From: a virus
Strand: one strand, 5' to 3'
Virus record (IMG/VR): IMGVR_UViG_3300020186_000033
Span: 1-45,738 of that record
Length of the DNA: 45,738 bases
Shown here: positions 1,796 through 43,063 of the stretch, piece after piece
How the letters are laid out: every line of letters starts with the position of its first letter
Numbering within the stretch: position 1 is the stretch's first letter
Program-made: the position numbers and the translations under genes
The notes under the pieces: model-generated
Databases searched by the model: none
What the model saw: the letters and a program-made list of their open reading frames with translations, nothing else
What the model was told of the DNA's origin: nothing

Positions 1796-2622
1796 GTTGT
1801 CACCCCGGGGTAATCGGCCGCGATAATGTCGCGAATTGCTACGGCCGAGGATTCGGGCGTTGCAAATGCCCGTGATCCGCTTGGCACGCTGGGGACGTAC
1901 ACCTGTCCGACGTCGGGCGTCGCCCGTGCCACGTGGCCGTAGGCACCATTTGTCGTGCACCGGTGCGCGTGCTCGCCTGTTTCCTGCATTGCGAAATGAG
2001 CGCGTCTCATATAGTCCGGGCACGCGAGGGCGAACGAAAGCCTATCAATGTCGAATTTATCGCCAGCGCGCTTCACCTCGACTCGATATTTCATGGTCAT
2101 TGCCATGTGATCGCAAGCATATACCGTTGTGATTTCGGTCGAGAACCCGGCCGTTTCCAGCGCGTCGCACCACGCCAACACGGCCGCGCCGCGATTGATC
2201 AGGTATGACGTTGGAATTGTAAATCCCGCAGTAATGTTGAGCAGGATGCGAATTGATGGGCGGACTCGCTGGAGTATGGGCGCGCGTCGGACCATTGATC
2301 GTGGCTCTCCAGCGCAGGCGAGCGGTACATGTGGCCGCTCCCCTCCCACGTCATAGCGATCGATTGCCCGGCGTGCAGTGCCCACAACGGCGCGCGCCGT
2401 GACAAGCGATCGCTGGATTTTTTCCAGCCCTTCCGGCCAACCGCGCTTAGCGGCGCTGACCATGTCGACCCACGACGCGAGGCTGCGGAATCCGGTTTTC
2501 GCTGAATCGTGCGAAGAATTTAGCGCTTTGGCGTGTCGCTGCGGATCGTCGACGAATTCGATGAACTCGCTCCAGGTCATATTTACGTCAGGCGATTTGG
2601 AGTGAAACGGCTCGCGGTTCAT
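1792..2622 (-). CDS. Degenerate vWA/CobT-like protein (DUF7192-like), 276 aa
   Basis: The N-terminal part carries MTWSEFIEFVDDP and RSLASWVDMVSAAKRGWPEG, which I associate with the phage family DUF7192. The C-terminal half resembles a von Willebrand A fold: a strand IRILLNITAG where a MIDAS motif DxSxS would sit, then RGAAVLAWCDALETAGF, like the helix after the MIDAS in CobT. The Asp and Ser metal ligands are missing, so metal binding is doubtful. The start ATG at 2622 has CCGGAGCGCAATC upstream and overlaps the stop of the AAA+ gene (ATGA). A coupled AAA+/vWA pair is the classic MoxR or CobS/CobT arrangement. The vWA reading is inference. Confidence 0.55.
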   Translation of the reverse strand: MNREPFHSKSPDVNMTWSEFIEFVDDPQRHAKALNSSHDSAKTGFRSLASWVDMVSAAKRGWPEGLEKIQRSLVTARAVVGTARRAIDRYDVGGERPHVPLACAGEPRSMVRRAPILQRVRPSIRILLNITAGFTIPTSYLINRGAAVLAWCDALETAGFSTEITTVYACDHMAMTMKYRVEVKRAGDKFDIDRLSFALACPDYMRRAHFAMQETGEHAHRCTTNGAYGHVARATPDVGQVYVPSVPSGSRAFATPESSAVAIRDIIAADYPGVTT

Positions 2623-3893
2623 GATTGCGCTCCGGCGGCGGCCTTGATTTTGGCGACACTCGCGGGATCAAGCCCTCGCCAGATCGTCATTTGCTCAACC
2701 TCGTTTTGCGCGAATTTCGCGCGAAGCAATTTTGCGCCGTCAATTGACGCTCTGGGAGACACGATCAGGTCGATTTTTAGCGTGGCGGCGGAGCGGCGGA
2801 TCCTCTGAACGTATGCGACCCACGCGCCGGAATCCTCGCCTGCTAGCGTGCTCTCGAGGTCCTCGTCGTATTGCCAATCGATGAATTTGAATCGGTCTAC
2901 GACTGATCCATCTTGTGACGTGGCGGCTACATAGATTCGGTCAGCGCCGCGCATCGTGGTGTTGCCGCCGGCCACGATCACGCAATCTGGGTGTTTTGGG
3001 ACCGTGCAATCGGCGAAATCTAGAGCGCCTGTGCTCAGGCCGTTGTTGAGAGCGACGCCCGCCGACGGATCGCTGCGGTCGAATTCGTCGAAAAGAAACA
3101 ACCCGCCAAACTCCCAGGATTCGCGGAGTTGTGTTCTGACCATGCGCCCATGCGCGTCGCGGAACCCGAGAAGGTCATACTTGCTGTCGATTTTGCCCGT
3201 ACTGCCAAACGGAAGCTTGAGCGCGAGGGCCGCGTTTTTGGCGGCTGTCGATTTGCCAGAGCCGGAGGGCCCGTGCAGGTAGACGTGCATTCGCAAGCCG
3301 GTGAGCCGGAGCAGTGTTTGGAACTGCCTGTGATGGCTTCCTGGGATTGTCTCCGGGTCAGCACCCGGCAGCACGATTTCGACGCGTGTCACGTTCGCGG
3401 CGTCGCGCGCTATCTCTCTGATGCGCGCTTCGTCCAGCGTCGGCCGGTTGGCTAGAGCGCGATCGATTTCGCCTCGGGCAATCTCCGCGATGATCGCGTC
3501 CAGGCTACCAGTTGCCTTCGGCGCTGGCGTAGGCTCTGGCGTAGGTTCCGGCTGTCGGACTGGCGGCGGGATATAGGGATCAGGCATGGCTGGTTCCTTC
3601 TGTTGTGGGATTGGGGTTGGCTGTTCGTGGCCAGGCCAGGTGTCCGAAGAGTAGACGTCAACGCATTTTTGGCCGTTGAATGCCTCTATCAGGGCTCTGA
3701 ATCCCCAAGCGTTTTTGACGTCGTTGCGCGGGAATCCGCTCGCGATCAGGTAGTATTTTACCGCTGTCCTGACTGGGATATCTCCGCCAGGCAGGCAGTC
3801 GAGGCTGATCGCGGTCAGCGTGCCAGGCAGGATGCGCGCCATGGAACAAAGTTGGCGTGGCGACGCATTGCTGGGAACAACTAGACGAGGCAC
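2619..3893 (-). CDS. MoxR/CobS-like AAA+ ATPase, 424 aa
   Basis: The chosen start is the GTG at 3893, preceded by AGGAGGACTGACC and abutting the stop of the pentapeptide gene; an ATG at 3587 (AGAAGGAACCAGCC) would give a shorter 322 aa form. Residues 1-80 form a small folded region, 104-128 a Pro-rich linker, and about 140-424 the AAA+ module: Walker A GPSGSGKST (208-216), Walker B LFLFDE (265-270), and a likely sensor or arginine-finger stretch DRFKFIDW. It should couple ATP hydrolysis to remodelling of a partner, most likely the vWA-like protein encoded directly downstream. CobS-like ATPases are known from other phages, but their target is not settled. Confidence 0.7.
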   Translation of the reverse strand: MPRLVVPSNASPRQLCSMARILPGTLTAISLDCLPGGDIPVRTAVKYYLIASGFPRNDVKNAWGFRALIEAFNGQKCVDVYSSDTWPGHEQPTPIPQQKEPAMPDPYIPPPVRQPEPTPEPTPAPKATGSLDAIIAEIARGEIDRALANRPTLDEARIREIARDAANVTRVEIVLPGADPETIPGSHHRQFQTLLRLTGLRMHVYLHGPSGSGKSTAAKNAALALKLPFGSTGKIDSKYDLLGFRDAHGRMVRTQLRESWEFGGLFLFDEFDRSDPSAGVALNNGLSTGALDFADCTVPKHPDCVIVAGGNTTMRGADRIYVAATSQDGSVVDRFKFIDWQYDEDLESTLAGEDSGAWVAYVQRIRRSAATLKIDLIVSPRASIDGAKLLRAKFAQNEVEQMTIWRGLDPASVAKIKAAAGAQS

Positions 3894-3895
3894 GG

Positions 3896-4435
3896 TCAGT
3901 CCTCCTGTTGCGCCCGTTGACGGAACAGGGAACCCGCGCGGACCGCCCCGGCGAAGGAAGCACCGACTGGGACCGCCCCGGCGAAGGAAGCACCGACGAA
4001 GGTCGCCCCGGAGAGATTCGCGCCGTCTAGGTTGGCGTAGTGCATACACGCGCGGGTCAGATTAGCGCCGGCAAGGTTTGCTCCGGCGAGTTTTGAGCAG
4101 GCGAGATTCGCGCGCTCGAGATTCGCCCCGGAGAGATTCGCGCCCGTCAGATCGGCGTTGGAGAGATCCGCCCCGGAGAGATTCGCGCCGGAGAGATCAG
4201 CGTCGACTAGAACGGCGTCAGAGAGATCCGCGCCAACTAGCCAGGAACCGCTTAGGTATGCTTCCGTCAGATCAGCGTGAGCCAGCGACGCGCCCGTTAA
4301 ATCAGCGTCGGACAGCACAGCATAGGCCAAGTAAGGGCCACGCGTGCGCGCTTCGGTCCTGGTAGGGTCAACAGTGGCAGTTTGCTGCCACCTGCCGTTG
4401 TGGCGGTTGAAAATCTTGACAGATGTTTGGGTCAT
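3896..4435 (-). CDS. Pentapeptide-repeat protein, 179 aa
   Basis: After about 35 non-repetitive residues comes a long run of A(D/N)LxG pentapeptides (for example ADLSGANLSGADL), which folds as a right-handed quadrilateral beta helix. Near the C-terminus two copies of a ten-residue unit (VGASFAGAVP/R) reflect a 30 bp tandem repeat at 3941-4000. Large pentapeptide proteins such as MfpA and Qnr mimic DNA and bind gyrase; whether this one does is not visible. The ATG at 4435 follows AGGAAAGCCCCAA and is the first leftward gene after the divergent control region. A second, smaller pentapeptide protein is at 43802-44080. Confidence 0.85.
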   Translation of the reverse strand: MTQTSVKIFNRHNGRWQQTATVDPTRTEARTRGPYLAYAVLSDADLTGASLAHADLTEAYLSGSWLVGADLSDAVLVDADLSGANLSGADLSNADLTGANLSGANLERANLACSKLAGANLAGANLTRACMHYANLDGANLSGATFVGASFAGAVPVGASFAGAVRAGSLFRQRAQQED

Positions 4436-5196: not shown

Positions 5197-6009
5197 ATGC
5201 GAAATACGAGCATGCGCGGCAGACCCCCAAAGGGTGCTATCCCTGTTGACTGGTCCAACATCCGGATTCTTTGGGAAGCCGGCTCCTCGATTGGGGAAAT
5301 ATCGGCGCGGCATCCTATTACCTCGCGCGCGATTCTTTATCGTGCGGAGAAGGGGGGATGGGATCGGGTGGCGCGGACGCAGGCGCTCGTGGAGAGGCAT
5401 CAGGCACCCGGGAAGTTCTTCAAGGTCCCGGAGGGCACTCCTCCTCGGCGGCCGGAATCTGAGCGCACTTGGCAGGAAAAGAGCACCCCGCAGGCTTGGG
5501 TGGAGGCGTTGGATAGGGTGACGCGGCCGGAGTGGGGAGACATGTTTCCGAAGGTGGAGCTGGCGAATGTGCTGAACAATCTGACGAAGTGCATGCCGCT
5601 GGGATTGGCGTGCGATCTGGCGGGGATCACGGAGCGGGCGAGTCAGGCGTATCGGCAGCGGGAGCCGAGGCTGGACCAGATGTTCTTGCAGGCCAGGGCG
5701 ATGGCGGCCGAGTCGATGATCGACAAGATCAGCGCCGACAAGGATTGGAAGTCGGCGGCGTGGTTGCTCGAGCGCGGGATTGCGCGGGCGGAGTTCAAGC
5801 CGGACGAGGTGACGGGCAAGGAGAAGCTGGTGATCGAGATCAATGTTTCACGCGACCAGGCGATTGCCTCGAGCGCCGGGGTGATCGATCTGACGCCGGA
5901 CGCGGGGGTGGAGTACGTCGGCGGAAAATGGATCAGCGCGAACGCGGCCGCAGGCAGCGAAGCGGTCCTGCTTCCCAAGGCCGAGGATCTCCCCAAGGGT
6001 TTGACGTAA
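5197..6009 (+). CDS. terS: Terminase small subunit, 270 aa
   Basis: The start ATG at 5197 follows CCAGGAAAAAA; the frame is open upstream to 4951 but that part has no ribosome binding site and reads as non-coding. Residues about 18-58 (VDWSNIRILWEAGSSIGEI, then SRAILYRAEKGGWDR) form a helix-turn-helix, and residues 120-195 a helical region with the WLLER-type pattern of small terminases. It should recognise the packaging site and load the large subunit. It ends TAATG, overlapping the start of terL. Confidence 0.8.
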   Translation: MRNTSMRGRPPKGAIPVDWSNIRILWEAGSSIGEISARHPITSRAILYRAEKGGWDRVARTQALVERHQAPGKFFKVPEGTPPRRPESERTWQEKSTPQAWVEALDRVTRPEWGDMFPKVELANVLNNLTKCMPLGLACDLAGITERASQAYRQREPRLDQMFLQARAMAAESMIDKISADKDWKSAAWLLERGIARAEFKPDEVTGKEKLVIEINVSRDQAIASSAGVIDLTPDAGVEYVGGKWISANAAAGSEAVLLPKAEDLPKGLT

Positions 6010-7496
6010 TGGCGACGTGGAAGCTCGATTACACGCCGTCCGAGAAACAGCGGGTTTTCCATGCCGTCAAGACGAGGCAAATCCTCTATGGCGGGGCGGC
6101 CGGCGGTGGGAAATCGCATGCGCTGCGCATGGACGGCATCCTCACTTGCCTGCAAAATCCGGGATGCCAGGGATATCTGTTCCGGCGAACCTACCCGGAG
6201 CTCAAGGACAACCACCTGATCCCCATCCAGCAAATGCAGATCCCGCCCGAGGTCGCGGCCTGGCGGGAGACCGATCGCAAGCTTCTGTTCCACAACGGCA
6301 GCTTCATGCAGTTTTGCTTCGCCGAAGACCTCAACGACATCTTCAAATACCAGGGCAGCGAAATGCACTGGCTCGGGATCGACGAGGGCGCCCTGTTCCT
6401 CGAGGACCAGCTCAAATTCCTGCGCACACGAGTCCGCTTGGGTGGGTTCGCGCCGGCTCAGGCCGATGTTCTCCCGAGGATCGCGATCGGCAGCAATCCC
6501 GGAGGCCCCGGACATAATTTCCTCCGGCGGGTGTTCATAGATCAGGCGCCCCCGATGCACGTCTTCCATGATCAGACCACCAAGACCAAGCTCAATCCCG
6601 GCTGGACAAGCGTCTATATCCCGGCCCGCATGGACGACAACCCGCATTTGGACACCCAGTCCTATGAAGGCTCGTTCACGGCGCTGTCCCTCGAGCGCGC
6701 CAGGGCCCTGCGCGACGGAGATTGGGATGTGATCTCCGGCGCCGCGTTCTCGATGCTGGACAGGACCAAGCACATGCTCCGGCCGTTCCGGCCCCCGCGG
6801 CACTGGACCCACGTCATGGCGATGGATTGGGGAACCGCAAAGCCGTTCTCGGTCGGCTGGTATGCGGTGAGCGAGGGTGCGCTCCTCAAGGAGTCGGGGC
6901 GCTGGCCTGAGGTCTATCTCGCCCCCGGGGCCATCGTGCGGTTTGCGGAATGGTATGGCTGGAATGGGGAGGCCGACGCCGGCTGCCGCATGAGCGCCGC
7001 GCAAGTCGCCAAGGGCATCCTGGACCTGGAAGCGGAAATGGAGTTGCCGCCGATCGATGTGCGGGTTTCAGATCCGCAAATGTGGGCAAGCCAGGACGGG
7101 CCCTCTCCCCAACAGAATATGCGCGTCGCCACGCAAGGGCGCATCGTGCTTCGCCAGGGACGTCGCGATCGCAAGGCGAATTATACCACGATGGTCTCGC
7201 GCCTGGTCGGCGAGCAGGACCGCTCTGCTTGGCGTCCGGGCTTCTACGTGACCGAGAACTGCCGGCATTTCTGGCGCACGGTGCCGAGCCTGATCCTCGA
7301 CGATGTCGAGCCCGACAAGGGCCCCGCGACTCGGCATCAGGAGGACCATTGTTACGACGAAGTTGCCTTTGCCCTGGGAACATGGAGTAAGGTGACGACA
7401 CAGGCGGATCGTGAACTCGAGGAGGTTCTCGAAATGGGTAGGGAAATGACAGGAGGCCTGTCGAGCGATCCCTACTCGGTGAGACGCAGACGATAG
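6009..7496 (+). CDS. terL: Terminase large subunit, 495 aa
   Basis: The ATG at 6009 overlaps the terS stop. The ATPase domain has Walker A GAAGGGKS (29-36) and Walker B WLGIDEG (121-127); the nuclease domain has the acidic residues D273 (MAMDWGT), D356 (SDPQMW) and the ED/D cluster at 445-450. Length and motif order are normal for a headful- or cos-type large terminase. It is the DNA translocation motor at the portal and cuts the concatemer. Unusually, the portal gene does not follow; 8 kb of accessory genes intervene. Confidence 0.92.
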   Translation: MATWKLDYTPSEKQRVFHAVKTRQILYGGAAGGGKSHALRMDGILTCLQNPGCQGYLFRRTYPELKDNHLIPIQQMQIPPEVAAWRETDRKLLFHNGSFMQFCFAEDLNDIFKYQGSEMHWLGIDEGALFLEDQLKFLRTRVRLGGFAPAQADVLPRIAIGSNPGGPGHNFLRRVFIDQAPPMHVFHDQTTKTKLNPGWTSVYIPARMDDNPHLDTQSYEGSFTALSLERARALRDGDWDVISGAAFSMLDRTKHMLRPFRPPRHWTHVMAMDWGTAKPFSVGWYAVSEGALLKESGRWPEVYLAPGAIVRFAEWYGWNGEADAGCRMSAAQVAKGILDLEAEMELPPIDVRVSDPQMWASQDGPSPQQNMRVATQGRIVLRQGRRDRKANYTTMVSRLVGEQDRSAWRPGFYVTENCRHFWRTVPSLILDDVEPDKGPATRHQEDHCYDEVAFALGTWSKVTTQADRELEEVLEMGREMTGGLSSDPYSVRRRR

Positions 7497-7528: not shown

Positions 7529-8317
7529 ATGACCCTGATCTTCTGGTATCCGGATAGCGCGCCCCATGACCTTGGGGAGAATCTCGCGCGTGCGTTCGGC
7601 GACGCCAAGCCGCTCTCAGAACTCGCCAAGGGGGCTTTGGGTGATGTCAATCTCTGCTACGGCATCCTGCGCGGCGGGGAGGAGTTGCATCGCCTGTGCC
7701 GGCTCATGAACAAGGATTTCATCCACGTCGATCACGGGTTTTGGGGGCGCACAGGCAACCTCAACTCCGTCAAGGAGGGGTATTTTCGGTTTTCGCTGAA
7801 CTCGCAGGTCCAGCGGCAAGTCCGCGCCCCGACTCCGAAGGACTTCGTTCGCGCCGAACTCCTGGTGGCGAGAGGGTTGTTCAATTTGCAAGCCAGGCGG
7901 GGATGGCGAGAAACAGACACCATACTTTACCAGCCTCCCAGTTCCTACATGGCGGCCTATTACGGCTTGCCGGGGGATTTCGACGCCAAGCAGATCGCGA
8001 AGCTCAATGCGGACTTTCCCAATGCCCCCGTCCGCCAAATCCTGAAGGGCGAGAGAGGCGTCGGCTCCGAGGTCGGGATGTTCGTCAGCTTCAACTCGGC
8101 CGCCGGGCTTCATGCCCTGGAGCTCGGGCTCGAGGTGCGCAATACCTGGGTGGATTCCCTGTGGTCCAACGGGATGGCGGCTCTCCCCGATGAAGATTGG
8201 AAACACTCCCGCTCAGTCCTATTCTGCTATCTCGCCGGCAGAACATTCGATTTCATCGAACTGCGCACCGGCCTGGCCTATGAGCACATGCTCGACAATC
8301 AAACCATCCCGAGGTGA
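7529..8317 (+). CDS. Putative glycosyltransferase-like protein, 262 aa
   Basis: First gene of the accessory block. It begins TLIFWYPDSAP and has a central FIHVDHGFWGRTGNL stretch followed by YFRFSLNSQVQ, a pattern I associate with poorly characterised phage proteins of GT-B style (a DhGYfgR then yR-N-q arrangement). No catalytic residues can be assigned with certainty. No membrane segment is present. The ATG at 7529 follows CCAGGGAGCC. Its place before a series of sugar-modifying genes supports a glycan role, but this call rests partly on context. Confidence 0.4.
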   Translation: MTLIFWYPDSAPHDLGENLARAFGDAKPLSELAKGALGDVNLCYGILRGGEELHRLCRLMNKDFIHVDHGFWGRTGNLNSVKEGYFRFSLNSQVQRQVRAPTPKDFVRAELLVARGLFNLQARRGWRETDTILYQPPSSYMAAYYGLPGDFDAKQIAKLNADFPNAPVRQILKGERGVGSEVGMFVSFNSAAGLHALELGLEVRNTWVDSLWSNGMAALPDEDWKHSRSVLFCYLAGRTFDFIELRTGLAYEHMLDNQTIPR

Positions 8318-8320
8318 AAA

Positions 8321-8425
8321 ATGGACAAGATCAGAGGCCTGCTCTCCCGCATCCCCACGCTCGCCTATGTCGCCATCGTAGGCGCCTTCCTCGGCATGGT
8401 GGTCATTCGATTACTTGTCCGCTGA
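8321..8425 (+). CDS. Single-span membrane microprotein, 34 aa
   Basis: ATG at 8321 after CGAGGTGAAAA. The product has a short basic N-terminus (MDKIRGLLSR) and one transmembrane helix (AYVAIVGAFLGMVVIRLL), with arginines at both ends. It lies 3 bases after the upstream stop. It could be a small holin-like or membrane anchor protein; nothing in the sequence decides. Confidence 0.55.
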   Translation: MDKIRGLLSRIPTLAYVAIVGAFLGMVVIRLLVR

Positions 8426-8471
8426 ATGAAACGCATGGTCAAAATCATAACCAAGAAAATAAGTAGGTCTC

Positions 8472-8810
8472 ATGATCAAGGCGAAATCGGCTAAGGCCAA
8501 GGGCCGCAAGCTCGAGCAATGGGTCACGGCCGAATTGCAAAACATCGGTCTCGCCGCTCGCCGCCAGCCGGGCTCAGGCGCGTTCGAGGCCTTCCCTCAT
8601 GATGTCAGCATGACCCTGCCGGATGGTTCACACGCCATCGTCGAATGCAAACAGAGGAAAAAGGACGCATGGGCTACAGGCGAGCGCTGGCTCGGACGCG
8701 CCGACATGCTGGTCGTGAGGGTCGACCCACCGCCGGGAAAGCCTATAATCGAGCCGCGCGTGTACATGCGCTTCGGCGTTCTCAAGCGACTCATTGGCCA
8801 GAAAGGATAA
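8472..8810 (+). CDS. PDDEXK-type endonuclease (resolvase-like), 112 aa
   Basis: It begins with a basic stretch (KAKSAKAKGRKLEQW), then RQPGSGAFEAFPHDVSM and AIVECKQRK, which together give the G-S-G, D and ExK signature of PDDEXK nucleases such as Hjc-like Holliday junction resolvases and VRR-NUC domains. The likely role is resolving branched DNA before packaging or trimming DNA. Position right after the terminase region fits packaging. ATG at 8472 after AAGTAGGTCTC. Confidence 0.65.
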   Translation: MIKAKSAKAKGRKLEQWVTAELQNIGLAARRQPGSGAFEAFPHDVSMTLPDGSHAIVECKQRKKDAWATGERWLGRADMLVVRVDPPPGKPIIEPRVYMRFGVLKRLIGQKG

Positions 8811-8814
8811 TCCC

Positions 8815-9195
8815 GTGGACATTTTCGACCCGCTCGTCAACGATCCAACCCCCGGCTTGCGCATCCACAACCCGGGCAACGTCAAGCACCCCAAGAAGGG
8901 CATCCTGCGCGGCGGCTCCTCAAGGCAGCCCCACCGCAACCTGCACTGCTTCACGGACTCGGTGTACGGCATCCGCGCGCTGGCTAACCGAGAGATCCAA
9001 GGCGCGGTCCCTGGCGTCACCACGCTCGGCGACCTGTTCCCCACCCCTGTGATCAACCTCGCCGGCCTCGATCGCACGACGGTCTTCGTCCGGGAAACCC
9101 ATCTTGAGAAACTGGTTGCGGCCTCCATCGAGCGCCGCTGCGGATGGCAGCCCTATACCCAGGAGACCATCGCCACCGGCTGTCGAATGGCCTGA
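8815..9195 (+). CDS. Structural protein P5-like lysin/transglycosylase-type protein, 126 aa
   Basis: Start GTG at 8815 after AAAGGATAATCCC, 4 bases past the nuclease stop; a TTG at 8794 is an alternative. LRIHNPGNVK, then CFTDSVYGIRALANRE, then late IERRCGWQPYTQETIATGC follow the R-NNPGN, F-s-YGiRA and I-E-G-Y-I-G pattern of PRD1 P5-like and related phage murein-degrading proteins. It is shorter than most, and a usual Trp-Gly segment between the first two motifs is replaced. It may be the endolysin, since none is seen beside the holin at 37265. Activity is uncertain. Confidence 0.5.
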   Translation: MDIFDPLVNDPTPGLRIHNPGNVKHPKKGILRGGSSRQPHRNLHCFTDSVYGIRALANREIQGAVPGVTTLGDLFPTPVINLAGLDRTTVFVRETHLEKLVAASIERRCGWQPYTQETIATGCRMA

Positions 9196-9224
9196 TCACA
9201 ATTCTGCATCCGGTGAGGTGTTTC

Positions 9225-9932
9225 ATGAAAATATCGATCGCAGTGCCTCAGAGTGCGATATCGAACATCAAGACAAAGGCAATGCGCATCGCGGTGGTGA
9301 TACCGTCCCGGGGACGCCCCAATCAGCTTGGCCGCGCCATCGATAGCATCGGTGACGCGGCCCAGGTTTATGTCGGACTCGAGGGAGGAGATCCCCAGCC
9401 CCATCCCGTGGCGCCCGTCCTGCTGTTCCCCGACGACACCCCCACAACGTTCAAGTGGAACGCGCTGGCGGACTACGCGCTCTCGCACGGCGCCGACATC
9501 GTGATCCTCGGCGCCGATGACATCCTGTTCGAGACGCGAGGCTGGGACGAAATGCTGCGTGAGCGCTTCGTGCGCTTTTCGGATCGCATCCTGGCGGTCG
9601 GATTCAACGACGGACGCTCGCACGGCGCGGTGCCGCATTATGCGGTGAGCAAGGAATGGATCGCGGCCCTGGGCTATTTCTGCCCGCCGATCTTCCATCA
9701 CTGGTGCGTCGACACATGGACCGAGTCGGTAGGTCATCGCATCGGCCGCTTCCAGTACGCCCACGACATCATGGTGCGCCACGATACCGTCAAGCTCACC
9801 GGTGTGATCGACGAGACGCACGCGCGCATCCGCCGCGGTGTCTGGCACGAGCGGGACAAGTCGCTGTTTGGGATGTCCGAACACTATCGCGAGGCCGACG
9901 CTGCGATCCTGCGCCGGTTGACCCGAGCATGA
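9225..9932 (+). CDS. GT-A glycosyltransferase-like protein, 235 aa
   Basis: The ATG at 9225 has CGGTGAGGTGTTTC upstream; an ATG at 9282 gives the form that begins RIAVVIPSRGRP, the usual start of family 2-type enzymes. The first strand with SRGRP, then IVILGADDILFETRGWD (nucleotide-sugar and metal site with paired Asp), and a late Asp/His-rich region match a GT-A fold. It should transfer a sugar from a nucleotide donor in the cytoplasm. It overlaps the epimerase gene by ATGA, so the two are made together. Confidence 0.65.
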   Translation: MKISIAVPQSAISNIKTKAMRIAVVIPSRGRPNQLGRAIDSIGDAAQVYVGLEGGDPQPHPVAPVLLFPDDTPTTFKWNALADYALSHGADIVILGADDILFETRGWDEMLRERFVRFSDRILAVGFNDGRSHGAVPHYAVSKEWIAALGYFCPPIFHHWCVDTWTESVGHRIGRFQYAHDIMVRHDTVKLTGVIDETHARIRRGVWHERDKSLFGMSEHYREADAAILRRLTRA

Positions 9933-10930
9933 GAGTTCTCATCACCGGCATCGCCGGCTTCCTCGGCAGCCACCTCGCCGACGCCCTGATCGCGGCAGGG
10001 CACACGGTCTCCGGCATCGACGATCTGAGCGGCGGGGCCATGCGCAACGTGCCGGGGAAAGCGGGCATGACAAAGGCCGATTGTTGCAATCATGATCTGA
10101 TGCACAGCGTGTTTGACATCATGCGTCCCGAGATCGTTTACCACCTCGCCTGCCATCCCCACGAGGGCCTCAGCGTGTTCTCGCCGGCCTTGGTCGCCGG
10201 CAGCGTCTTCCAGGGCAGCGTCGCCGTGTTTTCCGCAGCCGCCCAGCACAAGGTCAAGCGCGTGATCTTCGCAAGCTCCATGGCGCGCTATGGGGAGCAG
10301 TGGGGAGCGCCTTATGACGAAGACATGACCCCGGCTCCGCTTGACCCCTATGGCGTCGCGAAGCTTGCCGCCGAGGACACTCTGCGGATTCTCGCGCGCG
10401 CGCACAGCTTCGAGCACGTCATCGCCGTGCCGCACAACATCATCGGCGTGCGCCAGAAATACACGGACCCCTACCGTAACGTCGCGAGCATCATGCTCAA
10501 TCGCATCCTCTCCGGGAAAGAGGTGATCATCTACGGCGACGGCAATCAGGTCAGGCGGTTCTCCCCTATCGAGGATTGCATCGGCTCATTGGTCAGGATG
10601 CTCGACTGGAACGTCGACGGGGAGATCATCAATATCGGCCCCGATGGCGACGGCATCGCGATCAACGAGCTCGCGCGGCTGTGTCACGCGGCGGCGCATC
10701 TTGCATGGCGCAAGCCGACCTATTATCCGGCGAGACCACTCGAAATGAAGATCGCGACTTGCAGCTCGAACAAGGCGCGCCTGATGCTGAGCTTCTCCCC
10801 AAAAGGCAATCTCGAGAAATGCCTGAGAGACATGGCGAACAGCATCATCGCGTCGCCGTTCGACTATTCGCTTCCCCTCGAAATCATCAACGACAAAACC
10901 CCGGAGACGTGGCGTGAACGAAAGATTTGA
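9929..10930 (+). CDS. NAD-dependent sugar epimerase/dehydratase (extended SDR), 333 aa
   Basis: Glycine motif GIAGFLG (7-13), acidic residues D31-D32 after the second strand (preference for NAD over NADP), Ser pair at 116-117 and catalytic Y141-x3-K145 (YGVAK) give a full active site of the GalE/UDP-glucose 4-epimerase family. Length is typical. The reaction is on a nucleotide sugar (epimerisation or 4,6-dehydration), the product unknown. It overlaps its neighbours on both sides: ATGA upstream, 17 bases downstream. Confidence 0.85.
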   Translation: MRVLITGIAGFLGSHLADALIAAGHTVSGIDDLSGGAMRNVPGKAGMTKADCCNHDLMHSVFDIMRPEIVYHLACHPHEGLSVFSPALVAGSVFQGSVAVFSAAAQHKVKRVIFASSMARYGEQWGAPYDEDMTPAPLDPYGVAKLAAEDTLRILARAHSFEHVIAVPHNIIGVRQKYTDPYRNVASIMLNRILSGKEVIIYGDGNQVRRFSPIEDCIGSLVRMLDWNVDGEIINIGPDGDGIAINELARLCHAAAHLAWRKPTYYPARPLEMKIATCSSNKARLMLSFSPKGNLEKCLRDMANSIIASPFDYSLPLEIINDKTPETWRERKI

Positions 10931-11501
10931 ACAGCTTTGGGAAGCCTCCTGCAAGAGACTGCCGACCGTCGTGCAGGAGAAACGCGAATTGTTCGCGCTG
11001 TTCTCTCTCATGAGAGAAATCGGCTGCGAGAGCTATCTCGAGATCGGCACGTCCAACGGCGGCAGCCTGTGGGTCCTGGCCGCCGCGGTCGACGGCACGC
11101 TCACCGTCGTCGATATCTGCGAGGCCAAGAGCAAGGCGCTGTTCGATGAAGCGGTGGCCCACACCCAGGCCCATGCGATCTGCGGCGACAGCACCGATCC
11201 CGCGACCGTGGAGAGGGCGCGCGGCGAATACGATGTCGTCATGATCGATGGCGGGCACAGCTACGAAGTTGTCTCGGCCGACATGAAGAACTACGGCCCC
11301 ATGGCCAGGAAGATGATCGTGTTGCACGACATCAACCATCGCGATGTCCAGAAGCTTTGGGGAGAGATCGCGGCGTCGATCCCATTGCGCTGCCTGATGA
11401 TCAGCACCCCGCAATCCACCATGGGGTTCGGCGTGATCTTCAAGGAACCATCGGGCTGGCTCGCCAATGGCGAGCACAAGCAAACCCTGGTGACGCGGTG
11501 A
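10914..11501 (+). CDS. Class I SAM methyltransferase (CmcI/Methyltransf_24 type), 195 aa
   Basis: Start GTG at 10914 after CCGGAGACGTGGC. YLEIGTSNGGS (41-51) is the SAM-binding loop, VVDIC (65-69) the acidic ribose-binding strand, and VVMIDGGHSYE (108-118) the motif IV region typical of CmcI-like and rhamnosyl O-methyltransferases. It would methylate a small molecule or sugar hydroxyl. Coupled to the following methyltransferase gene by GTGA. Confidence 0.75.
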   Translation: MNERFEQLWEASCKRLPTVVQEKRELFALFSLMREIGCESYLEIGTSNGGSLWVLAAAVDGTLTVVDICEAKSKALFDEAVAHTQAHAICGDSTDPATVERARGEYDVVMIDGGHSYEVVSADMKNYGPMARKMIVLHDINHRDVQKLWGEIAASIPLRCLMISTPQSTMGFGVIFKEPSGWLANGEHKQTLVTR

Positions 11502-12175
11502 CCCAGCACACACTGGCCTGCATGGCCGCCACGGCCCTGCTACGCAAACAGCCGGCAGAGAGCATGTGGGACATCGGCAACCAGCGTTTCACCGCCACCG
11601 GCTGGCGGGCCATCAAGAGCACCGGCGACTTCTATCGCTCCTTCGGCTGCAACTATCGGGCGATAGATGTTAACTCGAACATGGAGGCCGACATCGCGGA
11701 CCTCAATCATCCGCTCGAGGGTCCAAGATTCCCCCCGCGCGATCTGGTGGTCAACAACGGCACCAGCGAACACATCTTCAACCAGGCGCAGTTGTTCAGG
11801 ACCATCCACGAGCTCTCGAAAAACTGCATGCTGCACATCCTGCCCTTCACGCCGTGGATCAATCATGGCTTCTTCAACTACAACCCGATCCTGTTCCGCG
11901 ATCTCGCGGCGGCGAATCACTACGCGTTCGAGTTCTTCTGGATCGGTGGCCGCGATGGTCGCTACGTGGAGATAGCGCCCGGCTCCCTCCACGCGTTTGA
12001 TGGCAAGCAGGCCGCGTCGCTATTGAAGGAGGTACGCAATCAGATCGGCGAACAGGAGGCGTTCCTGGTCGTTGCGCTGCGCAAGACCGAGGACACGCCG
12101 TTTCGCGCGCCCATTCAGGGGCGCTATCTGGCGGACATCGAGTCCACGGGGATGCGCATCGCCTATGAAACTTGA
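11498..12175 (+). CDS. Second SAM methyltransferase-like protein, 225 aa
   Basis: Start GTG at 11498 overlapping the previous stop. MWDIGNQRF near residue 23 and YRAIDVNS near 53 take the places of SAM motifs I and II; NNGTSEHIFNQ (86-96) and the later LPFTPWINHGFFNYNP are characteristic of methyltransferase-like proteins from polysaccharide clusters. The glycine loop is less canonical than that of its neighbour. A sugar methylation role follows from context. Confidence 0.6.
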   Translation: MTQHTLACMAATALLRKQPAESMWDIGNQRFTATGWRAIKSTGDFYRSFGCNYRAIDVNSNMEADIADLNHPLEGPRFPPRDLVVNNGTSEHIFNQAQLFRTIHELSKNCMLHILPFTPWINHGFFNYNPILFRDLAAANHYAFEFFWIGGRDGRYVEIAPGSLHAFDGKQAASLLKEVRNQIGEQEAFLVVALRKTEDTPFRAPIQGRYLADIESTGMRIAYET

Positions 12176-12881
12176 AATCGTCGCCCTATCCACCTCGCCG
12201 TTTCCGTTCGCGATCCTGCGCCACGAGATCGGCATCCCGCGCCCTGATTGGCGCGACATCGCCGGCGACGAGACCCGTCCCAATGTGCGCGTGGACATGA
12301 GCGTCAACACCATCCTCACGACCTTCCGCGCCCCGGCATGGAAGGTCTTGGCCGCGGCCTGCACCTCGCAGAGTTACTGGTCCGATTTCTATCTCCGAAG
12401 CTTCCGTGACGCGATCCTCGCCAGCTATCCCGACATCGAGAGCCGAGTGGGGAAGCCCATCGACGAGTGGACCGCCGGCCGGCGCTACATGAGCAGCGGG
12501 GCCGACGTGCTTCTCGATTTCCAAATCGGCATCAATACTCCGGCAACCATGCCTGGGAAGGTCAGCATCCCCCATATCGACAACCCGCGCGAGCTGATCG
12601 CCATGCTGCTCTACCAGAAGGACCCGGGCGACGAGCAGGGCGGTGATCTGCGGATTCTGTCCGCCGAGAACCCGAAATTCGTACGGACCACCGATCTCGC
12701 GCCGGACATTCCCTATCGCCATATCCTCACCGTGCCCTATGGCGTCGACACCGGCATCGCGTTCCTGCAAACCCCGCATTCCCTGCACGACGTCACGCCG
12801 CGCCTGCCCGGCCCCTTCCCGCGGCTGCTTATCAACCTGATCGTCGAAATGAAATTCCCCCTGTTCGAGGTCCCAAGATGA
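12165..12881 (+). CDS. 2-oxoglutarate/Fe(II)-dependent oxygenase, 238 aa
   Basis: ATG at 12165 overlaps the methyltransferase by 11 bases. The iron triad is complete: H137-x-D139 (IPHIDN) and H208 (SLHDVTPR), with R213 or R220 available to bind 2-oxoglutarate; the core is flanked by strands MLLYQKD and LLINLIVE. This is a prolyl-hydroxylase-like cupin of usual length. It would hydroxylate or oxidise a substrate at the expense of 2-oxoglutarate, in this block probably a sugar or an amino acid of the modified virion or cell surface. A TET/JBP-style DNA base oxidase is a less likely alternative. Confidence 0.7.
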   Translation: MKLEIVALSTSPFPFAILRHEIGIPRPDWRDIAGDETRPNVRVDMSVNTILTTFRAPAWKVLAAACTSQSYWSDFYLRSFRDAILASYPDIESRVGKPIDEWTAGRRYMSSGADVLLDFQIGINTPATMPGKVSIPHIDNPRELIAMLLYQKDPGDEQGGDLRILSAENPKFVRTTDLAPDIPYRHILTVPYGVDTGIAFLQTPHSLHDVTPRLPGPFPRLLINLIVEMKFPLFEVPR

Positions 12882-13618
12882 GCGACGTCATGGAAATCTT
12901 CATCGGCTACGACGAGCGCGAGCGCGACGCCTACGATGTCTGTGCGTTCTCCTTGCAGCGCAAATCCTCGATCCCGCTTCACATCCAACCCCTAAAGCAC
13001 AAGGATCTGCGTGCGCGAGGATTGTTCGATCGACCTTGGATCATCGACACCGTGAACGGCAGGTTCCGCGATCTGCGCGACGGCCGCCCCTTCGCCACCG
13101 AGTTCGCGTTCACCCGGTTCCTCGTCCCGCTGTTGATGAACTTCAAAGGCTGGGCGGTGTTCATGGATTGCGACATCCTGGCGCTCGCCGACATCGGGCA
13201 AATGAAACTCGAGTTCAACACCGCCAGGGCGGTCATGGTCGTGAAGCAGAACCATATCCCGCAGAACGAAACCAAGATGGACGATCAGCCGCAGATCGCG
13301 TATCCGCGCAAGAACTGGTCATCGGTCATCGCGTTCAACTGCGGCCACGCCTCGAACAGGGCGTTGACGGCAAATCTGATCAACCATTCCCCGGGGCGCG
13401 ACCTGCATCAATTCTCGTGGCTCGATGACAACGAGATCGGTGAATTGTCGCCGGGCTGGAACTTCCTCGTTGGGCACACAAAGCACGCCATCAAGCCGAA
13501 GCTCATGCACTATACGGACGGCGGGCCGTGGTTTGAGCACATGAAGAACGTCCCGTTTTCGGGGCTGTGGAACAACGAATACGATCACATGATGAAGGTC
13601 AGAGGCGCCTATGAATGA
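12878..13618 (+). CDS. GT8-like glycosyltransferase, 246 aa
   Basis: ATGA overlap with the oxygenase. EIFIGYDERERDAYDVC at the start, FTRFLVPLL near 78-86 and VFMDCDILALADI (94-106) give the DxD metal site (D97, D99) of family 8-type retaining glycosyltransferases; HYTDGGPWFE near the end is the usual late His/Gly motif. It should be cytoplasmic and use a UDP-sugar. It overlaps the next gene by 8 bases. Confidence 0.75.
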   Translation: MSDVMEIFIGYDERERDAYDVCAFSLQRKSSIPLHIQPLKHKDLRARGLFDRPWIIDTVNGRFRDLRDGRPFATEFAFTRFLVPLLMNFKGWAVFMDCDILALADIGQMKLEFNTARAVMVVKQNHIPQNETKMDDQPQIAYPRKNWSSVIAFNCGHASNRALTANLINHSPGRDLHQFSWLDDNEIGELSPGWNFLVGHTKHAIKPKLMHYTDGGPWFEHMKNVPFSGLWNNEYDHMMKVRGAYE

Positions 13619-15629
13619 TTCCATGAATTGGGGAGCCGCTCTCGGAATCCCCAACAAGACCAGAAATGTCATGGTCGTGACCTCGTGGTCCCCGGCGGGC
13701 GCCGCGCTCTATGGCGACGACTGGTCCGCCTCCGCCGCGCGGTTCTGGCCGCCGAGCATGCGGCCGGTCGTCATCACCGATGCGGAACTCGAAAAAGATC
13801 CCGAGTTCGTCGCGTTCATGGCTCGCCACGCGCACCGGAGGATGAATCCTCATGACCATGATTATGATTTTCGTATGGATCTGGTTCGTTTCGCTCACAA
13901 GGTCTTCGCGCTGAAGGTCGCGATCGATTCGGTAGATACGGACTGGCTGATCTGGCTCGATGGCGACGTCACCACGCGCGACCGTATCACGGAGGAGTTT
14001 CTCGACTCGATCCTGTTGGAGGATCATGACGGCGTCCTGCTTTCCCGCTCCGGCACCGCGTCGGCTCCGGAATGCGGCTTCATGGCGTTCAATCTCAGGC
14101 GTGGCGGCATCGAGTTCCTGCAAGGCTTCATCAAGCTCTACACGAGCGACGCGGTGCTCCAAATGGCCGAGCACCACGACAGCCATGTTTTCATGGCGGC
14201 GGTGCTCGCGCACATGGAGGCCAAGGGCTCGAAATGGCTCGATCTGGCGCCCAGGGGCGGCGGCAAGCACGGCCTCGACGCGTTCGAGGTGAGCCCGCTG
14301 CATTCGTTCTTCACGCATCGCAAAGGTAACCGGAAGTTCACCGAGCTGCCGCCGTGCTCGAATGAGCGCATCCTGGGCATGCTGGCGGCCGGCAGGGGGG
14401 TGACCCGCATCCAGGCGAAGCCCTGTCTGTGGCCCAGGACAGCCCCGGAGGCCGGGTCCGTCGTCATCATCGAATGCGGCATGCACGGCATCGATAACAT
14501 CAGACAGACCGTTCTCAAATACGCGAACACGCTGCAAATCTATGACGGCTACTACACCGCCGATGCCCATGGGTCTCACATCGACGACACGCTTCATGGC
14601 GTCAACTCGGTGGTCAATGACCTCATCGTGTTCGACTCGATCGAAACGGCGGTCAAGGGATTCATCCATATCGCGGTTCCCGCGGGTTTCCCCAACATCC
14701 CCGTATCGATTCCGATCTTCACCCACCGCATGCTGGCGCCGATCAACAAGAGCGATGTCACCAAGCTTTCCAAGGATGCCTACAAGACGAATTTTCTGCT
14801 GCAAACGCAGAACTGCGTCAGCAACGAGGAGATCCACGCGAACATCACGGCCAACATGCTGCTGATGTCGAAATGGATCACCAACACCTATCCCCACCGC
14901 AACCGCGCCATCGTGGTCTCCGGCGGACCCAGCATTCACTTCCCCGAGACCATGGCGGAGATCCGCAGAGAGATCGCGGCCGGCGCCTATGTGCTGTGCG
15001 TCAAGCACGCGCATCAACACCTGATCGCCAGCGGCATCATCCCCTGGGGATGCGTGCTGCTCGATCCTCGCGAGCACGAGGGCACCTCAACTCATGGCCA
15101 TTCCCGTCGTGACCTCATCCCCAAGGCTCATCCCGGCGTGCGCTATTTCGTGGCGTCGATGGTCCACCCCAGCGTCACGAAGAAGCTGCTGGACAGCGGC
15201 GGCAAAATCATCGGCTGGCATGCCGCCGTAGGCGCGGACGAGAAGAAAATCCTGCCCCCGGAGCACGCCGCGATGCTGATGGGAGGCGGCACCTCGTCGG
15301 CGGGGAGGACCGTTTTGCTCGCCTGGCAATTCCTCGGCTTCGGGTCGATCGGGTTGTACGGCTTCGATTCCTGCCACCTCGATCACAGCAGTGTCGATCG
15401 CAACGCCCGCCACCAGGACGGGACGCCGAAATATGTGATGATGGATATGGCGGTTCAGGGCGCCCACAAGGAGTTCCTGACTGACCGGGATATTCTCTCC
15501 CAGGCGCAGGACTTCACCCGCTTCATGAAGGAAGCGCCATGGATTCCCTGGGACTCGCATGGCGAGGGCATGGTGGCCTTCCTGTGGGAGAACACCAAGG
15601 GCAAACTCCCCAAGATCGACTCATACTAG
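13611..15629 (+). CDS. Fusion of an N-terminal GT-like domain and a C-terminal MptE/Maf-like (DUF115) domain, 672 aa
   Basis: Residues 15-230 look like a GT-A domain with IWLDGDV (114-120) as metal site. Residues about 430-640 carry AIVVSGGPSIHF, then VLCVKHAHQHLI and LLDPREH, matching the MptE-like/DUF115 domain of motility accessory factors that attach pseudaminic or legionaminic acid-type sugars to flagellin. The middle segment is unassigned. Last gene of the block; no near gene follows (72 bp gap), so the block ends here. Attachment of a nonulosonic acid to protein is suggested by the Maf relation, but no synthase for such a sugar is present. Confidence 0.65.
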   Translation: MNDSMNWGAALGIPNKTRNVMVVTSWSPAGAALYGDDWSASAARFWPPSMRPVVITDAELEKDPEFVAFMARHAHRRMNPHDHDYDFRMDLVRFAHKVFALKVAIDSVDTDWLIWLDGDVTTRDRITEEFLDSILLEDHDGVLLSRSGTASAPECGFMAFNLRRGGIEFLQGFIKLYTSDAVLQMAEHHDSHVFMAAVLAHMEAKGSKWLDLAPRGGGKHGLDAFEVSPLHSFFTHRKGNRKFTELPPCSNERILGMLAAGRGVTRIQAKPCLWPRTAPEAGSVVIIECGMHGIDNIRQTVLKYANTLQIYDGYYTADAHGSHIDDTLHGVNSVVNDLIVFDSIETAVKGFIHIAVPAGFPNIPVSIPIFTHRMLAPINKSDVTKLSKDAYKTNFLLQTQNCVSNEEIHANITANMLLMSKWITNTYPHRNRAIVVSGGPSIHFPETMAEIRREIAAGAYVLCVKHAHQHLIASGIIPWGCVLLDPREHEGTSTHGHSRRDLIPKAHPGVRYFVASMVHPSVTKKLLDSGGKIIGWHAAVGADEKKILPPEHAAMLMGGGTSSAGRTVLLAWQFLGFGSIGLYGFDSCHLDHSSVDRNARHQDGTPKYVMMDMAVQGAHKEFLTDRDILSQAQDFTRFMKEAPWIPWDSHGEGMVAFLWENTKGKLPKIDSY

Positions 15630-15701: not shown

Positions 15702-17873
15702 ATGGTTGATTCCAGTAACTTTCGCGGCGACTCCTCAAAGATCAAGAAGCCCCGCAAGGCGCCGAAACAACTGAGCGGCATGCTCGTCAACATCGCCGAC
15801 TCCCTCCCCGAGGCCGATCTGGCGGCGATCGCGGAAATCTGCGTCGAGGATTTCGAGGCCGACCGCTCGAGCCGCGCCGAGTGGGACTCGATGCACGCCG
15901 ATTGGGTGGCGGTCTACAATCAGTGCGACGCCCCGATCAATCCGCCTTGGCAGAACTCGTCGGACGAGTCGATCGGGCTCCTGACCGAAAGCTGCAACTC
16001 ATTCCAGGCCCGCGCCTATAAGGCGTTCTTCCCCAGCCGCAACCCGATCACGGCGCTCGCGGTCGGCAAGCAGAGCCCCACGATGAGCGAGCGGGCCAAG
16101 CGCGTCGGGAAATATCTGCAATGGAGCCTGTTCACGCGCGACCAGACCTACAAGGAGGAGAAGTCGGCGATGCTCCTCCGGGTCGCCATCCACGGCTCGG
16201 ATTTCTCCAAGACCTATTTCGACCCGGTCATGAACAAGATCGTGGTCCGCCCGGTGCGCGCGCAGGACCTCTATGTGCCCTACAGCGCCGGCCCGGTGAA
16301 CATCGAGGACGTGCCGAGAAAGACCGAGCTGATCCACCTTGGTCTCAACGAGGGCCGCTGGCGGGCGAAGGCGGGATACTTCTCCGTCGTGCCGGTCCCG
16401 ATGGCGCAGGGCATCAATGCCCAACCTCAGCAACAGCAGGCCGACAGCGACGGCGGCGTCAAGCCGGGCTCGCTCTCGGACTCCGAGGACTACAGCGAGA
16501 TCGTCGAGCAGCATCGCGATCTCGACCTGGACGGCGACGGCATCGCCGCGCCCTACAAGGTGTGGGTCGACGTGACCGCGCGCGTCACGCTGCGCATCGA
16601 GGTCCGCTACGACGTCGATGATCTGGGCCGCCCCACGAATGGCAAACTGCCGATAGAGGAATACACGCATTATCGATTCCTGGTGAACCCGGACGGCTTC
16701 TACGGCTACGGCCTGGGCTTCCTGATCGGCAAGACCAACATCGCCATGAACAAGATGTTGCGTCAGTACATCGACGCCACGACGCTCGCCATCCACGGCA
16801 ACATGAGCGGTTTCATCAGCGACGAGCTCAACGTCTCCAAGGGGCCGGTGAAGCTCGAGCTGGGATCGTTCAAGACCGTCTCGGCCTCGGCGGAGCAGAT
16901 CCAAAAAGGCATCAAGACAATGGACTTCAAGCCTCCCAGCGATGGCTTGATGAAGGCGATGGGGCAGCTTGAAAACCGCGCCCAGCGCATCGGCGCCGCG
17001 ACGGACGCGCTCTCCGGGGACATCCAGAAGGTCATGCAACCGACCACGATCATGACCATGGTGGAGCAGGGCTTGATGCTGTTCACCTCGGTCCAGGAGT
17101 TCCTTCTCAACTCGTGGAGCAAGGAGCTCAACAAGGTCTACCGGCTCAACAGCCTGTATTTCCGGGGCGAGGAATGGTTCGTCGCGATCTCGCCGGCCGG
17201 CGCCGAGGAGGCCTTCGTCAAGGAGGAGGATTTCCGCGACGACATGATGATCATGCCGGTGGCCGACCCGCGCATGTCCAGCCAGCAGACCCGCATCCAG
17301 CGCGCCCAATTCCTCTATGACTTCGCGCTGAAAAACCCGCTGATCGCATCGCGGCCCGAAGTTCTCCTCAAGGTCACGCGCCGGCTGCTCGAGGAGATGG
17401 ATTTCGACTCGATCGACGAGCTCCTCCCCAAGGACGTCAAGGAGCTTCCCCCGTCGCAGCCCGACCCCAAGGTGCAGGCGATCCAGGCCAAGGCGCAGGC
17501 GGAACAGGCGAAGATGGCCGGCCAGCAGCAGAACGAGCAGCAGAAGATCGGCCTGCTCGCCCAGAAGACCAAGGTGGAGAGCGACGCCATCGTGCAGAAA
17601 TCCCAGGTCGATGCCCAGGTCGCCATGACGAAAATGGGCATCAACGAGGAAATGGCCCGGCAAAACGCCGGCCTCAAGAGCGCGAAGATGTCGAGCGACA
17701 TCGAGATGTCCCGCGCCAAGACCGCACACGAGCGGGACGCGCGGACCTCGGAACTCGCCGGCAACCACGCCTTGAGCAAGGCGGAGTCGCGCGCCGCGAT
17801 CAGGCTGGACCGTGAGAAGGCCCGCGCCGATGTCTTCACCAAGGCCATGAGCGGCGGAGCGCCGAAGAAATGA
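15702..17873 (+). CDS. Portal protein, P22-gp1-like, 723 aa
   Basis: ATG at 15702 after CGGAGTGAAG. The length is almost that of P22 gp1 (725 aa). The central wing and stem region shows the podovirus portal pattern (YTHYRFLVNPDGFYGYG, then IGAATDALSGD). The last ~150 residues are a charged, Gln/Lys/Ala-rich coiled coil (from about 580), suited to a long helical barrel inside the head. It forms the dodecameric ring through which DNA enters and leaves. The preceding 72 bp hold a weak hairpin (CCGGGC/GCCCGG) only. Confidence 0.88.
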   Translation: MVDSSNFRGDSSKIKKPRKAPKQLSGMLVNIADSLPEADLAAIAEICVEDFEADRSSRAEWDSMHADWVAVYNQCDAPINPPWQNSSDESIGLLTESCNSFQARAYKAFFPSRNPITALAVGKQSPTMSERAKRVGKYLQWSLFTRDQTYKEEKSAMLLRVAIHGSDFSKTYFDPVMNKIVVRPVRAQDLYVPYSAGPVNIEDVPRKTELIHLGLNEGRWRAKAGYFSVVPVPMAQGINAQPQQQQADSDGGVKPGSLSDSEDYSEIVEQHRDLDLDGDGIAAPYKVWVDVTARVTLRIEVRYDVDDLGRPTNGKLPIEEYTHYRFLVNPDGFYGYGLGFLIGKTNIAMNKMLRQYIDATTLAIHGNMSGFISDELNVSKGPVKLELGSFKTVSASAEQIQKGIKTMDFKPPSDGLMKAMGQLENRAQRIGAATDALSGDIQKVMQPTTIMTMVEQGLMLFTSVQEFLLNSWSKELNKVYRLNSLYFRGEEWFVAISPAGAEEAFVKEEDFRDDMMIMPVADPRMSSQQTRIQRAQFLYDFALKNPLIASRPEVLLKVTRRLLEEMDFDSIDELLPKDVKELPPSQPDPKVQAIQAKAQAEQAKMAGQQQNEQQKIGLLAQKTKVESDAIVQKSQVDAQVAMTKMGINEEMARQNAGLKSAKMSSDIEMSRAKTAHERDARTSELAGNHALSKAESRAAIRLDREKARADVFTKAMSGGAPKK

Positions 17874-37264: not shown

Positions 37265-37657
37265 ATGCTCGCCCTTCTCCTCCCCGTCATCGGCCCGCTG
37301 CTCGACACCATCCTCAAGCGCGTGCTGCCCGATCCCGAAGCCCGGCAGAAGGCCATCATCGAGCTCTACGCCGCGCTGCAAACCAGCGACCTCGCGCAGA
37401 TCGAGGTCAACAAGGCGGAGGCCGCATCGAGCTCGGTGTTCGTCGCCGGCTGGCGGCCGATGATCGGCTGGGTGTGCGCGATCGCGCTTCTGTATCAATA
37501 TCTGCTGACGCCGATTGCGGTTTGGTTCGGCTTCATAATCGGGCATCCGATTCCCCAGCCGCCAAACCTAGACGGCAATCTGTACGAACTCATGTTTGGG
37601 ATGCTCGGCATGAGTGCCTTGCGCAGCTTCGACAAGCTCAAGGGGACGGCGCGGTAG
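37265..37657 (+). CDS. Three-helix holin (GTA_holin_3TM-like), 130 aa
   Basis: Pattern VNKAEAASSSVFVAGWRPMIGW and two hydrophobic segments (CAIALLYQYLLTPIAVWFGF and LFGM-type near the end), plus a hydrophobic start LALLLPVIGPLLD, match the three-span holin family known from gene transfer agents and rhizobial phages. It would permeabilise the inner membrane to start lysis. No endolysin gene adjoins; the P5-like gene at 8815 is a candidate partner. Last gene of the rightward arm, overlapping the convergent gene by 20 bases. Confidence 0.75.
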   Translation: MLALLLPVIGPLLDTILKRVLPDPEARQKAIIELYAALQTSDLAQIEVNKAEAASSSVFVAGWRPMIGWVCAIALLYQYLLTPIAVWFGFIIGHPIPQPPNLDGNLYELMFGMLGMSALRSFDKLKGTAR

Positions 37658-40147: not shown

Positions 40148-40150
40148 GGT

Positions 40151-42883: not shown

Positions 42884-43063
42884 TCAACGGCGGATATCCG
42901 CTGGCTTGATCCTTGCCAGCTTCCCGCCTGGGCGCAGCGGCCCCGCCACCCGTTTCGTGATCTTCGGCGGCGGCGGTGCTGGCTTCGGCGGATTTGGCTT
43001 CTCCCCAAAGTCGCCAAGCGCGGGGGCCGAGAAAATGGGAAGCGGCGTCCAATGCTTTGTCAT
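42884..43063 (-). CDS. Pro-rich small protein, 59 aa
   Basis: ATG at 43063 overlaps the stop of the DnaA-like gene (ATGA). The product begins MTKHWTPLPIFSAPALGDF, has a Pro/Lys middle (KPNPPKPAPPPPKITKR) and a basic end (RIKPADIRR), as expected of a DNA- or protein-binding peptide. It has no own ribosome binding site; coupling is the main support. It contains one copy of the octamer TTGGGGAG. Confidence 0.55.
   Translation of the reverse strand: MTKHWTPLPIFSAPALGDFGEKPNPPKPAPPPPKITKRVAGPLRPGGKLARIKPADIRR

Follow-up and report, generated by a model that had tools for sequence, protein, structure and literature searches.

The window, i.e. the whole stretch of DNA analysed here, is the IMG/VR virus record IMGVR_UViG_3300020186_000033 of an uncultured phage (45,738 bases), and the element in question is the interval between its terminase gene, terL, and its portal gene (positions 7529-15629), to which we refer as "the slot" and which is filled by ten open reading frames (ORFs) on one strand, g1 to g10. 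We have found that the slot holds a phage glycosylation cluster that is ordinary in kind and unusual in its make-up: it has a conserved core with three glycosyltransferases, one of these is a fusion of a GT-A domain with a Maf-type domain, and a block of decorating genes replaces the methyltransferases of the relatives. We judge the chances to be about even that this island makes a glycan during phage assembly, with virion proteins as the presumed acceptor, and also decorates it. The borders of the slot and its core genes are the following:

terL, 6009-7496, plus strand: left border of the slot; Terminase_3 match (E=8e-4); at least 70% identity to 28 viral contigs.
g1, 7529-8317, plus strand: GT-B glycosyltransferase resembling the KpsC/WbbB transferases of beta-linked 3-deoxy-D-manno-oct-2-ulosonic acid (Kdo); core gene.
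g2, 8472-8810, plus strand: nuclease-like gene of the Holliday-resolvase/PDDEXK kind (PHROG_244, E=5e-7); core, not a sugar gene; 67-73% identity in the relatives.
g9, 12878-13618, plus strand: GT8-like glycosyltransferase (PHROG_28018, E=2e-57); core gene.
g10, 13611-15629, plus strand: GT6-like GT-A domain (g10-N, residues about 16-250) fused to a Maf/MptE domain (about 400-660); core gene.
portal, 15702-17873, plus strand: right border of the slot; SU10_portal match (E=4e-7).

Conservation of the slot

The 28 close relatives, one of them a near-copy of the window phage, were collected by a scan with terL alone; g1, g2 and g9 are located at the same place in all 28 contigs, and g10 in 27, the 28th contig ending ahead of the position of g10. 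When the near-copies are excluded, the relatives show one order: terL comes first, in many cases with a small winged-helix-like gene behind it, g1 and g2 follow, and after at least one further small gene come a methyltransferase for which we use the working name MT23, g9, frequently an FkbM methyltransferase, and then g10 and the portal gene. The search for the same gene order in other phages has also been successful at greater distance, in the contigs L098, L177 and L079 (QZKR01000020.1; terL 46% and portal 41% identical), the last of which is binned in a Myxococcales genome and in all likelihood represents a virus contig that ended up in that bin. In the slot of L079 (6087-12159), the two halves of g10 occur as a separate glycosyltransferase gene and a Methyltransf_24-MptE fusion; a radical SAM/SPASM gene is also present (8042-8986). 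In more distant phages (portal identity about 29%), such as QDWS535 and ct2os315, terL and the portal gene are neighbours.

The slot is thus ancestral to the lineage. The original prediction had described an 8 kb cassette inserted into the terL-portal junction of a P22-like phage; insertion is rejected for g1, g2, g9 and g10, the core genes that the close relatives have in common, and what stands of a feature peculiar to this phage is the private inner six, g3 to g8. The P22-like label is unsupported as well, because the portal is nearest to SU10_portal, the capsid matches Phage_capsid_4 and the Mu-like gpT, and the terminase is of the Terminase_3 type; neither the portal nor the capsid is P22-type. 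The nearest cultured phages reach only 25-30% identity to the window portal, and among 50,697 phage records there is no DNA-level match to the window, the length of which is close to that of the longest close relatives (45.7-46.7 kb).

Genes with other possible roles have been seen in some relatives. A YhhQ-like transporter gene adjoins a queuine tRNA-ribosyltransferase (DpdA-like) gene (L039:5589-6817, also L060, and L043 near 1426-1932), located either inside the slot or ahead of terL, a pair that is absent from the window and possibly serves 7-deazaguanine modification of DNA in those relatives. A weak match to the Mom family (E=0.0013), which may represent another DNA modification gene, occurs in the slot of L061 (12804-13280), as well as in L046 and L056.

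Glycosyltransferases of the core

No sequence family was matched by g1 in the profile-library scans, Pfam and PHROG included, and its assignment comes from the predicted structure. The AlphaFold model (predicted local distance difference test score, pLDDT, 84.5) has the KpsC/WbbB-type GT-B fold: the best 21 Foldseek matches in the PDB are all retaining beta-Kdo transferases of the KpsC/KrkA/WbbB group (E-values from 4e-7 to 9e-5, probability 1.00), at template-modelling scores (TM-scores) of only about 0.4-0.5. Residue D68, the aspartate of an HxD motif, is invariant in the lineage and retained in most distant homologues, which match Capsule_synth/DUF6716 weakly; the donor of g1 and the correspondence of D68 to the catalytic D160 of KpsC are putative.

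In g9, the DxD motif (DCD) and a C-terminal HxTxGGPW motif are kept across the relatives; the window protein is without a Pfam GT8 match, and its homologues match GT8 below the cut-off (E=2e-4 for the one in L079). The C-terminal part of g10 belongs to the Maf/MptE-like family PF01973 (E=3e-10, 40.8 bits against a cut-off of 34.6), and Foldseek places it with MptE (8sd5) and Maf (5mu5), confirming the relation that had been predicted, while the N-terminal part is placed with GT6-type GT-A enzymes; the g10 model is modest (pLDDT 65.5). Sequence searches of the PDB with the profiles of g1, g9 and g10 yielded nothing meaningful. Together with g4, described below, these genes bear out the predicted count of four glycosyltransferases.

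The private decorating block

Between g2 and g9, the window carries the following genes:

g3, 8794-9195, plus strand: short endolysin-like ORF with a TTG start, private; weak match (PHROG_873, E=3e-4).
g4, 9225-9932, plus strand: GT-A glycosyltransferase of the decorating block, private (PHROG_14945, glycosyltransferase, E=1e-20).
g5, 9929-10930, plus strand: GalE-like NAD-dependent sugar epimerase, private (PF01370, E=7e-47).
g6, 10914-11501, plus strand: S-adenosylmethionine (SAM) methyltransferase of the Methyltransf_24/CmcI type, private (PF13578, E=6e-13; PF04989, E=8e-6).
g7, 11498-12175, plus strand: probable SAM methyltransferase, from motif reading, private.
g8, 12165-12881, plus strand: probable 2-oxoglutarate-Fe(II) (2OG-Fe(II)) oxygenase, private (PF13640, E=0.036).

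Profile searches and structure prediction have left the predicted functions largely in place. The epimerase is secure, with a PDB match to UDP-glucose 4-epimerase (E=4e-43), and one of the two predicted methyltransferases, g6, is firm; g7 has no family match in any profile-library scan, which makes its methyltransferase call weak. For the oxygenase, the iron-binding triad (HxD...H, within HxD...H...R) can be read in the translation of g8, but the match to 2OG-FeII_Oxy_3 stays below threshold (15.4 bits against a cut-off of 27), and no match was found in the PDB or NCBIfam. The description of the interval as a sugar-modification set is mostly right, with g2 and g3 to be taken out of it. The overlaps at the junctions from g4 to g10 are, in order, 4, 17, 4, 11, 4 and 8 nucleotides (with g8 starting at the ATG at 12165); the predicted ATGA or GTGA overlaps from 9225 on occur at three of these six junctions, and the remaining three are longer.

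The block g3-g8 has been found only in the window and in two contigs that are 99.9% identical to it, and viral scans with g7 and g8 matched this phage population alone. The window has no homologue of MT23 or FkbM, and therefore g3-g8 stand where the relatives carry those methyltransferases; the decorating genes have been swapped. Neither g7 nor g6 is supported as a diverged MT23, as hhalign gave no signal.

The block could also be passing cargo without a settled role, next to a core that alone is active: no other relative has it, g7 and g8 are without relatives beyond the window phage population, and selection on g3-g8 is not measurable because all remaining copies are 99.9% identical. We consider such a reading improbable, since all the frames are intact and overlapping, the block occupies the place of the methyltransferases of the relatives, and g4 and g5 are found again as a pair, in unchanged order, close to the g9 modules of L131 and L140 (g5 identity 49-51%). 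The GC content at third codon positions of g4-g8 matches that of the rest of the genome, and composition therefore gives no hint of a very recent entry.

A wider three-glycosyltransferase module

Members of the g9 family are present in at least 598 stretches of viral contigs. Of the distant g9 loci, 62 after dereplication, 60 have a relative of g1 in the fetched flanks, 46 a relative of g10-N and 28 an FkbM gene, whereas at loci picked by distant terL genes relatives of g1, g10-N and FkbM are found at none of 13. A second sample, picked by the unrelated methyltransferase MT23 (57 dereplicated loci), agrees: g1 is present at 13 of the 16 loci with g9 and at one of the 41 without it (Fisher p=3e-9), and g10-N at 14 of 16 and 0 of 41, respectively (p=2e-11), p-values that overstate independence because the loci share descent to an unmeasured degree.

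Among individual genomes, Pelagibacter phage Mosig carries FkbM methyltransferases, g10-N, g9 and g1 consecutively, g1, g9 and MT23 of Caulobacter phage CcrColossus follow immediately on the tail genes, and in ctDrO704 MT23 and g9 lie within a group of head and stabilisation genes. In Synechococcus phage S-SCSM2R (L242:9001-12526), a g9 relative is followed by two unrelated hypothetical genes and then by kdsB and kdsA, which would fit a donor of the type of cytidine monophosphate (CMP)-Kdo in such clusters; this phage would thus bring along a CMP-Kdo pathway next to its module. The two genes between g9 and kdsB were considered as candidates for g1 and rejected, as they are without the g1 motifs; two 2OG-Fe(II) oxygenase genes lie beyond kdsB and kdsA.

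The three glycosyltransferase types thus co-occur far beyond the lineage of the window, in a module that is apparently unnamed: we have found no published name for the three-transferase core, and the papers available to us on MptE/DUF115 in phages and on terminase-portal cassettes yielded no description of the slot arrangement.

The acceptor of the glycan

That the enzyme set builds and attaches a modified sugar, as had been predicted, is well supported. If virion proteins are the acceptor, g1, g9, g10-N and the Maf/MptE domain of g10 would assemble a short glycan on a phage structural protein in the cytoplasm, akin to the action of Maf on flagellin before filament assembly; Kdo or another CMP-activated sugar would be one putative donor. 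The epimerase g5 would supply and g4 would add an extra sugar, which g6, and perhaps g7, would methylate and g8 would hydroxylate, replacing the MT23 and FkbM methyltransferases of the relatives; the island would be co-transcribed with the late genes for packaging and the head. Glycosylation of virion proteins is the best single reading because of the late-gene position, the Maf-like domain and the precedent for virion glycosylation by phages: Maf glycosylates flagellin in the cytoplasm (PMC4065374), and capsid and tail-tube proteins are glycosylated by phage-encoded enzymes (Freeman 2023, as reported in PMC12363180 and PMC12619734). Also in favour are the constant place of the core genes in close and distant relatives, the association of the three glycosyltransferase types, the predicted structures of g1 and g10, the swapped decorating genes, the mostly overlapping genes on one strand, and the neighbourhood of tail genes in CcrColossus and of head genes in ctDrO704. 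The Maf domain and the late-gene position make a protein acceptor plausible; the serine and threonine content of the virion proteins singles out no acceptor.

Several points weigh against this reading. The enzymes of the KpsC family act on surface glycolipids and polysaccharides, the Mosig module sits among nucleotide-metabolism genes and not among virion genes, the promoter and terminator scan for a transcription unit stayed at chance level, and the calls for g7 and g8 are weak; the activities, the donor, the virion-protein acceptor and the order of the steps are all inferred by us.

The main rival is modification of the host surface during infection, with lipopolysaccharide, the capsule or a glycoprotein of the surface (flagellin included) as the target, e.g. 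to exclude other phages or to keep progeny from attaching to debris. The resemblance of g1 to KpsC and WbbB, which build surface polysaccharides, kdsB and kdsA near g9 in a cyanophage (S-SCSM2R), the flagellin-glycosylating relatives of Maf (PMC4065374) and the location of the Mosig module outside the virion genes are all in agreement with it; on the other hand, the terL-portal place, conserved throughout the lineage, suggests expression with the virion genes, which is late for exclusion, and the slot is without a membrane or export gene. We hold a role at the host surface to be possible, though rather unlikely.

Glycosylation of the phage DNA against restriction is very improbable in our view. 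Hypermodification of DNA by glycosyltransferases of viruses does occur (Pyle 2024, as cited in PMC12619734), and the relatives with DpdA/YhhQ-like or Mom-like genes carry them in or near the slot, but no base-hydroxylating gene was found: among the scanned ORFs of the window, some small ones being left out, nothing matches a base hydroxymethylase, TET/JBP or a C5-methyltransferase, and kinship with Maf, FkbM and the Kdo transferases suggests that the acceptor is a protein or a glycan.

Returning to virion proteins as the acceptor, we tentatively put forward, as a broader and fairly unlikely proposal, that g1, g9 and g10-N constitute a widespread, unnamed phage system that glycosylates structural proteins through a KpsC-type transferase and a CMP-activated sugar (Kdo or similar), joined in the window lineage by a Maf-type transferase; the decorating genes of this system would be swappable and lend each phage a surface glycan of its own.

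Other features of the window

Outside the slot, the window contains a pentapeptide-repeat ORF (3896-4435, minus strand; Pfam E=9e-38) that overlaps an AAA gene (2619-4049), a holin of the gene-transfer-agent type (37265-37657, plus strand; GTA_holin_3TM, E=2e-20), a pair of genes for an ERF single-strand annealing protein and a YqaJ exonuclease (39446-40969, minus strand), and an ORF that carries the C-terminal domain of DnaA (43060-43980, minus strand; E=1e-7).

Comparison with known systems

If the virion is the acceptor, phages with glycosylated particles would be frequent far outside the actinobacteriophages, and the combination of a conserved core and variable decorating genes would resemble surface diversification by phages. 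The genes g1, g9 and g10-N, with MT23 and FkbM, are a testable gene set for many "hypothetical" glycosyltransferase clusters of phages, including those of the cultured Mosig and CcrColossus. These two clusters share homologues of g1, g9, g10-N, FkbM and MT23 with the window lineage in varied combinations, and differ from the slot in being located outside the terL-portal interval, in having other decorating genes and in that no MptE domain was detected in them.

At the level of single enzymes, g1 shares its predicted fold and, putatively, an invariant aspartate motif with the KpsC/KrkA/WbbB beta-Kdo transferases, but it is shorter (262 amino acids), about 12% identical and at a TM-score of about 0.5. 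The C-terminal domain of g10 agrees in sequence and fold with the Maf flagellin glycosyltransferases and MptE (PF01973; 5mu5, 8sd5), from which it differs by its fusion to a GT-A domain and its location in a phage, between terL and the portal gene. The mycobacteriophages Che8, Corndog and Myrna, according to Freeman 2023 as reported in PMC12363180 and PMC12619734, likewise encode glycosyltransferases, and their capsid and tail-tube proteins carry glycan, which would be a parallel to the presumed virion acceptor of the window; the window differs from them in its Maf domain, its KpsC-like enzyme and its oxygenase.

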